A stretch of DNA of 64,000 bases, from assembly GCF_000828655.1 (NCBI RefSeq), contig NZ_AP014509.1:1860001-1924000 (forward strand). The letters run 5' to 3'. The notes under the pieces were generated by a model. It had not been told where the DNA came from. It saw only the letters and a list, made by a program, of their open reading frames with translations, and searched no databases. This document shows positions 51,805 through 55,924 of this stretch, piece after piece. Within the stretch, counting starts at the first letter, position 1. Every line of letters begins with the position of its first letter. The position numbers and the translations under genes were made by a program. Source of the DNA: Thermotoga caldifontis AZM44c09. Its GTDB lineage: Bacteria > Thermotogota > Thermotogae > Thermotogales > DSM-5069.

Positions 51805-53538
51805 GTGAAGCTGTCGCTCAAGGCTTTGGGAATCTTTTTTGTTGTAGCCATCGCTGCTGTTTCGATGGTTCCACTCGTTCTGGTTGCTTCAAAGGCGAAT
51901 TCCAGAGTTGTAAATGACGTCGCCCAACAGATGTATCTGAACACGCTCGATGGTGCGCTGAACGTTCTGAAAGAGTACGTGAAAACGGAGTACGGGACTT
52001 TGAGGCTCGTGAACAACACGCTGGTGGACAAGGATGGAAAACCCATCAGAGACAGGTTCGAGGTTGTGGACAAGATCAGTCAGCAGATGAACATCGCGGC
52101 AACGATCTTTCAGAGAGAAGGAGACGATTTTCTCGGAGTCTCGACTTCGATCCGCAAGGACGATGGCAGCAGAGCCGTTGGAACGTTCCTTGGAAAAGAC
52201 AGTGCCGCGTACAAGCCTTTGATGCAAAAACAGCGCTACGTGGGTGCAGCAAAGATACTCGGCAAAGACTACGCCACAGCGTACGAACCTGTACTTGACG
52301 AGTATGGGAACATCATCGGAGTGCTGTTCGTGGGTGTGCCGAAGGCGAAGATCGACGAGATCATCTCGAAGGACAACCAGGCCTTCTTGCGCAACATTTC
52401 GGTAACCGCTGGAACAGCGCTCGTTGTGGCCATCGTGTTTGGATACATGTTCGTCAACGTGGTGCTCATAAAGGCGATGAACAGATTTTCCGAAATCATG
52501 AACAGGATCAAGGACGGTGATCTTGCAGTCCAGATTGAATACAAATTCAACAGCAAAGAATTCTCACAGCTCGCAGAAACCGTGGAGCGAATGAAGCGTG
52601 GACTTGCTGGTTTAGTGATGAACATCAGCAAGGTATCGAACACGGTCTCCGAAAAGAGCCAGGATCTCGCTTCGGTCTCAGAGGAACTGAGCGCCTCATC
52701 AGAAGAGCTTGCATCGCAGATGGAAGAAGTCAACAGATCTGCCCAGAACGCGTCCGCTTCGATAGAAGAAGTCACAAGCGGCATAGAAGAAGTTGCAGCC
52801 AGTGCACAGAACGTATCCAAAGCTGCCCAGATGCTTTCTGAAAGATCCAGCCAGGTGAACGCTGCTGCGAAGGAAGGAGAGAAGGCCATAAAGAACATAG
52901 TGGAGATGATAAAACAAGCGAAAGACAAAGTGGAACAGACGGCTTTAGTAGTGAGCGAGCTGAGCCAGCAGGCCAAGAACATAGGTCAGATACTTCAGAC
53001 GATCAACTCCATAGCAGAGCAGACGAACCTTTTGGCGCTGAACGCGGCGATAGAGGCAGCGAGGGCGGGAGAAGCAGGCAGAGGTTTTGCGGTGGTTGCG
53101 GACGAGATAAGGAAGCTTGCAGAAGAGAGCAAGAGAGCGACGGACCGGATAGGACAGATACTGGGTCAGATAAGTCAGGGTGCGATGAAGGCGGATGGGG
53201 CGACGAAGGAAGTTGTGGGAGTGGTTGAAGGGATAAGCAAAGATGCAGAAGGGGTGGAGGGTCAGTTCAGGAAGATAGCGGAGCAGATAGACGGTATGGT
53301 GAGTCAGATAGAGAGTCTGGCTGCGAGTGCAGAGGAGCAGAGTGCGGCGGCTGAAGAGATGAGCAGTGCGATGGACGCAGCGACGAAGTCGATCAGCATG
53401 ATAGCTCATCAGATAGAAGAGATGGCGAAGGCGGTGAAAGAGCAGGCGAACGCGAGTCAGAGTGTGAGCAGTCTGTCTGAAGAGATGTCTTCGATCGCGG
53501 AAAGTTTGGTAGAGCAGGTGAGAAAGTTCAAAATCTGA
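51805..53538 (+). CDS. Methyl-accepting chemotaxis protein with extracellular Cache-like sensor
   Basis: 577 residues. The first membrane span is at about 5-28. The external sensor (about 30-195) has a Cache-like block ([32 protein letters not shown]). The second span is about 203-225, then HAMP, then the cytoplasmic hairpin with [35 protein letters not shown] at the tip. It signals to CheA/CheW. The GTG at 51805 has GGGAGGTG 6 nt upstream. Codon use changes inside the gene: isoleucine is mainly ATC before about 52750 and mainly ATA after it. Confidence 0.93.
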
Positions 53539-53544
53539 GTGGCG

Positions 53545-53586
53545 TTGAAAAAAAACGAAAGGGGCGCAGATGCGCCCCTTCTTTTC
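53545..53586. terminator. Strong bidirectional terminator after the chemotaxis gene
   Basis: AAGGGGCGCA (53559-53568) pairs with TGCGCCCCTT (53571-53580). The plus strand continues CTTTTC; the minus strand continues TTTCG and eight T (53556-53545 region). It can end both the receptor transcript and a minus-strand RNA from 53922. Confidence 0.9.
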
Positions 53587-53830
53587 ATTTTGACGGATCG
53601 TCTGAGAAGCGAGTTGGAGCTGACAAAAACAGGAACGGTTGACGACTCTCTTTTTGGATTAAAGTTTTCGTTTTTACCGAGCTGTCTCGCTGGAGAATCG
53701 AACCAGTCACGATCAGGAAGATTCCTCAACCGTAAGAATCTCATAAGCGAAGGTTTGTTTCATCACAGATTGTAGCTCACATCGCACAGCTGTCCTGTTT
53801 CGAGCGATCTTCGCGCGATCTCGTTTCGAA
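53587..53830. other. Gene-free stretch with small inverted repeats
   Basis: No coding signal was seen on either strand. Small minus-strand hairpins occur, for example AGATTC / GAATCT near 53730 and CTGG / CCAG around a GGTTCGATTC loop near 53700. They may be part of a longer minus-strand RNA that starts at 53922 and ends at the terminator near 53550. Confidence 0.4.
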
Positions 53831-53922
53831 GGGAGCGCTCAGGAAGACTCTTCCAACCGAACGGTGTAGGATGAGCCCAGATACGAATCCTCCGGTTCGA
53901 ACATCCCTTTCGGAGCGCTCCC
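53831..53922 (-). ncRNA. Candidate structured small RNA of unknown class
   Basis: On the minus strand the segment begins GGGAGCGCTC and ends GAGCGCTCCC, forming a perfect 10-bp closing stem. Inside, CGAACCGG pairs with CCGTTCG (one bulge), AGGAT with ATCCT (14-nt loop), and GGAAG with CTTCC (triloop). A perfect TATAAT (53932-53927) ends 4 nt before the first G, so transcription would begin at the stem. It shows none of the conserved motifs of SRP RNA, 6S, tmRNA or RNase P RNA that I can recall. Confidence 0.5.
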
Positions 53923-53926
53923 ATTC

Positions 53927-53954
53927 ATTATATACGGAACCCTCACATTAAGAA
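53927..53954 (-). promoter_or_regulatory. Putative promoter of the candidate small RNA
   Basis: TATAAT at 53932-53927 with a weak -35 (TTCTTA) 16 nt upstream on the minus strand. It lies between the rRNA operon terminator and the structured element. Confidence 0.5.
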
Positions 53955-54011
53955 TCTGAAACAAACACATGGCGACACAACGTCTTCCATGAGATCAACT
54001 GCGAAAGCCTG

Positions 54012-54052: not shown

Positions 54053-54172
54053 CCCCGGGCACTACCTACTCTCGCGTGGGGCTGCCCCCACACTACCATC
54101 GGCCCAGAGCGGCTTAACGGCCGGGTTCGGAATGGGACCGGGTGTTTCCCGCTCTGGTATCGGCACCCGAGG
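54053..54172 (-). rRNA. rrf: 5S ribosomal RNA
   Basis: About 120 nt. The 5' CCTCGGGTGC and 3' GTGCCCGGGG ends pair over 10 bp. The middle carries CCCATTCCGAACCCGG and GCCGATGGTAGTGTGG, typical of 5S. Ends are set by the terminal stem and may be off by a few bases. Confidence 0.95.

Positions 54173-55182: not shown

Positions 55183-55924
<742 letters not shown>

Follow-up and report, generated by a model that had tools for sequence, protein, structure and literature searches.

The CiaR-dependent csRNAs of streptococci are specified by several similar sRNA genes per genome that share one regulator and one promoter type (PMC4507080, PMC3091779), and the LhrC1-5 sibling sRNAs are multi-copy RNAs with repeated conserved motifs whose expression and targets have been shown (PMC4132741; reviewed in PMC4211561). 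For Thermotoga maritima, 12 putative ncRNAs have been described, to none of which a defined secondary structure could be assigned (Latif et al. 2013, PMC3636130); its intergenic regions were reported to leave little room for regulation (PMC3636130). Here we consider a locus on the minus strand of a 64-kb stretch of the genome of Thermotoga caldifontis AZM44c09 (the window), from the same bacterial order as those T. maritima ncRNAs. The locus is very probably a member of a multi-copy family of small structured RNA genes in two sister genera of the Pseudothermotoga group. This putative family is uncatalogued so far, and a single genome contains up to about twenty copies.

Sibling sRNAs such as the csRNAs and LhrC appear to provide the best analogy, and the likeness is one of gene organisation. 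Several homologous copies are found per genome, ten in the window's own genome and up to 21 in G008, a genome of the sister genus. Like the csRNAs, they would form a set of similar small RNA genes with one promoter type common to the copies, and like LhrC1-5 they are homologues with repeated conserved motifs. The differences are equally plain. The csRNAs have no known sequence relation to the present family, which has 10-21 copies, a longer predicted transcript and an internal closing stem; LhrC has a different conserved core; and the family described here is a predicted one. It resembles 6S RNA (RF00013), which also has a long-range closing stem close to its 5' end, but 6S RNA is present in one or two copies and differs in size and core, and RF00013 gave no match on the window locus even at E-values up to 10.

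The original prediction placed a structured RNA in a gene-free gap downstream of the rRNA operon, and we found no convincing gene in the spacer between the mcp stop at 53538 and the 5S rRNA at 54054. It also described a minus-strand TATAAT followed after 4 nt by a GGG opening a perfect 10-bp stem, and a strong minus-strand terminator with eight T near 53550. Direct reading agrees: minus strand 53937-53912 is 5'-CCGTATATAATGAATGGGAGCGCTCC, with TATAAT at 53932-53927, then GAAT, then GGG at 53922-53920; the two arms (53922-53913 and 53840-53831) are perfectly complementary over 10 bp; and the terminator with its T8 run lies at 53581-53548. The features of the locus, as they emerge from comparison with its relatives, are these:

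53952..53962, minus strand: upstream promoter element GTTTCA (53957-53962; family form GTTWCM), 19-20 nt before CGTAT
53927..53936, minus strand: promoter core CGTATATAAT (family form CGTATMTA), which includes TATAAT at 53927-53932; CGTAT is nearly invariant in all copies
53912..53921, minus strand: palindrome GGAGCGCTCC at the presumed transcription start; palindromic in most copies, with differing sequence
53913..53922, minus strand: 5' arm of closing stem P1, GGGAGCGCTC; backed by covariation and by an arm-swap test
53888..53902, minus strand: P2 region (GUUCGAACC...), limits approximate; homologous to the ACCGUCCAGACGGU hairpin elsewhere
53857..53887, minus strand: conserved core, window form UUCGUAUCUGGGCUCAUCCUACACCGUUCGG (family form UNCAUUGGNNUNGGUCUAANNCGUUGG)
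53831..53840, minus strand: 3' arm of closing stem P1, GAGCGCTCCC
53582..53830, minus strand: 3' tail, lying between the structured domain and the terminator; within a 444-nt, 83% identical orthologous alignment
53548..53581, minus strand: intrinsic terminator GAAGGGGCGCATCTGCGCCCCTTT-CG-T8, probably also that of the convergent mcp gene

The terminator is probably common to the RNA and to mcp because a paralogous mcp elsewhere has the same 3' end and terminator where the RNA is absent (L002 and L013; 96.6% identity over 87 nt in L002). As to length, the prediction had offered either about 92 or about 375 nt. The long form is the likelier: the window transcript would be some 365-375 nt, and the 92-nt structure is likely to be its 5' domain rather than the whole RNA. 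The 92-nt fold has a predicted energy of -40.4 kcal/mol (z = -3.06), with two of 200 shuffled sequences folding equally well, and a 386-nt stretch folds better than 99 of 100 shuffles. Perfect 10-bp inverted repeats with a similar loop size occur at 15 positions in the window, overlaps counted, so the stem by itself is weak evidence and only comparison could decide. Each arm of the window copy is nearly palindromic alone, P2 is weaker there than in relatives, and in the core (CUGG...CCUAC) this copy is among the more divergent ones. The neighbouring 23S rRNA gene contains a group I intron (window 55192-55894, minus strand; RF00028, 71.9 bits) with a 165-aa ORF (55188-55685) that, by eye, resembles a LAGLIDADG homing endonuclease.

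In a DNA search of 61 genomes, a second species proved to have an orthologue behind its rRNA operon, with 83% identity across 444 nt (0.62-0.95 per 40 nt in the 3' tail); one paralogue was present in both that species and the window genome. The position beside the rRNA operon holds in this second species, but the family is dispersed and not tied to it. Four aligned sequences have in common the blocks CCGTATMTAATNAATGGGAGCGCTCC, GTTCGAAC and TTCGTAWYTGG. The window's palindrome occurs nine times in its own genome, seven of them after the same promoter block. A gapped pattern matched the genus's five genomes at 7, 8, 10, 1 and 5 places, and 56 other genomes yielded a single chance-like match; the reversed control pattern had zero matches in the window's genus.

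We searched 103 Thermotogota genomes with a covariance model (R1) built from 20 copies, the window copy included. It gave 10, 10, 14, 1 and 15 matches in the window's genus (G000-G004), 2, 2 and 4 in the sister genus (G008-G010) and none in the remaining genomes; these counts include a few mRNA-leader copies, such as the DUF1659 leader at G000:1484305. The window copy, being in the training set, scored 70 bits (E 1.9e-13), and others reached E-values down to 3e-24. A sequence-only model (R2), representing mainly copies of the sister-genus type, matched 7, 9, 15 and 12 times in four genomes of the window's genus and 21, 8, 9 and 5 times in G008, G009, G010 and G007 of the sister genus, with no match outside the two genera among the Thermotogota genomes searched. 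Taken together, the models are positive in nine of the 103 genomes, all in the two sister genera; eight of these genomes have 5-21 copies and the ninth has one. In the other 94 they find no copy. In the window's own genome the ten R1 matches become about 13 RNA-like copies when the two lists are merged by eye. Many copies occupy the same intergenic place, judged by neighbouring genes, in two to four species, and two cases extend across the genera (L114/L119 and L105/L116/L131). Between orthologues, identity is highest at the presumed start (0.93), lower in the promoter (0.87) and lowest farther upstream (0.72). Divergent short members (TGGAAGGGCGCGCCGACCAGCATGCTGGTGG) were also seen in L029 and L030, from position 1501 onwards, antisense to the 3' end of a GGDEF-domain-like gene.

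No recognisable RNA class had been seen in the locus, and Rfam 15 likewise gave no match above its curated thresholds, either at the window locus or at the element in 35 further loci; relaxed thresholds on the window locus returned only terminator-like and chance matches. A world-wide scan with a pattern of the sister-genus core hit eight places, four of which, in the Thermotogota MAG G010, had already been found; the other four are in other phyla and chance-like, with neither promoter nor palindrome.

The copies have a recognisable anatomy. In the window's genus the promoter block is GTTWCM-N19/20-CGTATMTA, with a G run 5-9 nt after it; in an alignment of 63 copies GTTWCM stands at -25, and its strongest part is GTT, conserved at positions -25 to -23 relative to CGTAT chiefly in copies of the window's genus. 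The near-invariant core reads UUGGNNUNGGUCUAA, and P2 is the hairpin ACCGUCCAGACGGU with variants such as CCAUCUCGAUGG. AAGGAU is frequent in copies of the window's genus, and its GGA can pair with UCC beside the closing stem. In most of these copies the second arm is GCGCTCCC and a terminator, often AGCCCCAGANATGGGGCTTTTT, lies 195-400 nt from the start. Arm spacing in the family is about 70-110 nt, up to 178, and most sister-genus copies are without a clear second arm or an evident terminator. The first arm is palindromic even though its sequence differs from copy to copy (GGAGATCTCC, GGGAACGTTCCC, GAGCGCGCTC, AGGCGCCT, CAAGCTTG), including at orthologous places (L036/L050 versus L104/L115; L097/L098 versus L112). 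The symmetry mostly covers 8-12 nt in arm 1 and 2-8 nt in arm 2 (8 nt in the window's own arm 2), and it persists in copies that have no second arm, for which the closing stem gives no explanation. At the RNA level this palindrome could fold into a short 5' hairpin whose tetraloop is self-complementary; at the DNA level it would act as an operator.

Conservation within Thermotogae, which had been proposed as a check, is found in the orthologue, in the same-genome paralogues and in covariation of the closing stem. In 56 aligned copies 96.0% of P1 cells are paired, with two-sided changes in all eight modelled pairs, and 78.9% of P2 cells, with two-sided changes in five of five pairs. For the two helices combined, 90.1% of cells are paired and there are 53 two-sided changes against 16.7 in shuffles; in five whole-structure measures none of 500 shuffles of the 56 copies reached the observed value, and sliding the partner lowers pairing to 33-58%. 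The alignment used here (A3) was fitted to the stem and so favours it, the statistics ignore the kinship of the copies, and among 14 close relatives there is too little variation in the stem for an independent covariation signal, which makes an alignment-free test important. In such a test, with one representative per locus and kinship again ignored, the copies' own arms paired better than swapped arms (0 of 5000 swaps did as well), a result that stands without the most divergent member. Compensation of the whole stem is seen in L099 (GGAGAGCGC/GCGCTCTCC) and in L123 (GGAAGAGGA/TCCTCTTCC), and G-U changes keep RNA pairing while breaking DNA symmetry. Comparison of sequences supports the predicted closing stem and the hairpin P2 directly enclosed by it; support for a 4-bp helix P3 in the core is weak. 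The original prediction had nested three helices within the closing stem; the three inner helices of the single-sequence fold do not reappear in that form in relatives. On the evidence of these comparisons, the reading of the locus as a new structured RNA is supported.

The proposal that the RNA has its own promoter is borne out at the level of sequence, since copies in the window's genus have a promoter-like block in common. This block, together with the palindrome, also stands before an operon encoding DUF1659 and DUF2922 proteins (Pfam E-values of 9.7e-9 and 1e-16), whose leader has the palindrome but not the second arm. At the presumed start of this leader the palindrome is TGGGAGCGCTCCCA, the sequence of LacI-family operators of the CebR/CelR type. 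Leaders in which the promoter block is combined with a palindrome or hairpin at the 5' end precede DUF1659-DUF2922 at L035, L038, L043, L049, L165-L169, L172, L174 and L175, and in several leaders of this type CUCC(C/U) could pair with the Shine-Dalgarno sequence GGGAG/AGGAG. At L109/L111 the same block precedes what may be a holin-like small gene, below the Pfam cut-off. The DUF2922 protein is found throughout the phylum, whereas the leader with promoter and palindrome was observed solely in the window's family, the inspected T. maritima-like genomes showing none; DUF2922 was therefore dropped as a guide to the promoter. In T. maritima, promoters usually have the form TGnTATAAT (PMC3636130). 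The family's block differs from this form, so an alternative sigma factor or an activator is likely to lie behind it. A census of sigma factors singled out no candidate, each genome having several, and a literature search on DUF1659, DUF2922 or sRNAs of these genera found nothing relevant.

The observations on the palindrome raise the question of whether the repeats act as DNA. If the palindrome at the start site were an operator resembling those of the LacI family (cf. TGGGAGCGCTCCCA), looped to a second one 70-110 bp farther downstream, the RNA structure would be a by-product of the two palindromes. The first arm, a 10-bp palindrome in the position of a roadblock operator, suits this idea, as do the two-sided changes that keep its symmetry even in copies that have no second arm and the occurrence of the palindrome alone before the DUF1659-DUF2922 operon. 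The second arm, however, is complementary to the first yet not palindromic in most copies, and so is not a second operator; arm spacing ranges from about 70 to 178 bp, the G-U changes respect RNA pairing and not DNA symmetry, and an invariant core and terminators follow. Several different palindromes in one genome would be odd for one repressor, and in this variation, as in the non-palindromic second arm, the family differs from operators of the CebR/CelR type. Twin operators were discarded as the main reading on account of the second arm and the variable spacing, and we regard them as improbable. The idea that the hairpin arose by chance in an intergenic spacer could appeal to the 15 comparable inverted repeats in the window, but it is refuted by the homologues: the family-wide recurrence at the E-values given above, with none in the genus for the reversed pattern, reduces its probability almost to nothing.

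It is quite improbable, too, that the copies are small mobile or amplifying DNA elements (MITE-like) with a promoter, spreading rather than being selected as RNA genes. The sister genus provides the best case for such elements. About twenty copies in G008 (L197-L215) have mosaic flanks, many being near-identical over more than 100 bp (about -36 to +75), which suggests recent amplification or recombination between copies; ectopic recombination is our inference. In most copies of G007-G010 (e.g. L197-L215, L219-L228), GTTAGNCTNAACNAAGTTC precedes CGTATA by exactly 110 bp, a fixed spacing although the intervening sequence varies, and it resembles the inverse of the GGTCTAATCTTTTGG end. These inverted-repeat-like ends belong to the sister genus only, and the left motif was not seen in the window's genus, where copies occupy orthologous places in two to four species and, in two cases, across genera. 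The closing stem shows covariation, and no target-site duplication could be found; for the only G008 copy tested, G010 has an orthologue next to the same upstream gene, not an empty site. Very improbable, finally, is a set of small-peptide mRNAs, for example of a multi-copy type I toxin, with the closing stem between 5' and 3' parts limiting translation. Frames from the AATGGGAGCG ATG run for 19 to 140 codons without a stop in many copies, and one frame of the core gives Y-I-G-[VIL]-G-L in many copies (partly by eye). Against this, the G run varies from 2 to 4 in length and shifts the first frame, starts, lengths and stops differ among copies and orthologues, and one frame stops within the core or at its end in most copies. 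No reading frame, with a common start, length or stop, is common to the copies, and the peptide idea was rejected on that ground.

We return to the family as RNA genes, and think it likely that the copies are co-regulated sibling small RNA genes. The RNA would begin just after the promoter block, at the G run and with the palindrome, and the palindrome might fold first into a small 5'-terminal hairpin, exchanging to the closing stem once the second arm has been made. That stem would join the 5' end to a site some 70-110 nt (up to 178) downstream, enclosing hairpin and core, and in most copies of the window's genus the RNA would continue through the tail to an intrinsic terminator. How such RNAs might act can be put forward only tentatively. 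As with sibling sRNAs, a dedicated regulator, either an alternative sigma factor or an activator, may turn on all copies together. The invariant core points to one partner for all copies, either a single RNA or an RNA-binding protein, for which it would be the contact site; pairing of the core with rRNA was not clearly better than that of shuffled cores. The variable remainder and the tails suggest copy-specific targets or dosage. It is rather unlikely that the family amounts to a new functional class of RNA, with 10-21 dispersed genes, a dedicated non-housekeeping promoter, an invariant core for one partner and a self-complementary 5' end that dimerises or switches between hairpin and closing stem, amplified in one lineage.

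Current annotation misses the family at about ten or more loci per genome. Relatives of T. maritima from two other genera seem to possess an entire set of RNA genes under common regulation, and the regulator, the RNA family and two conserved but functionally uncharacterised proteins, DUF1659 and DUF2922, would be jointly testable in thermophiles.
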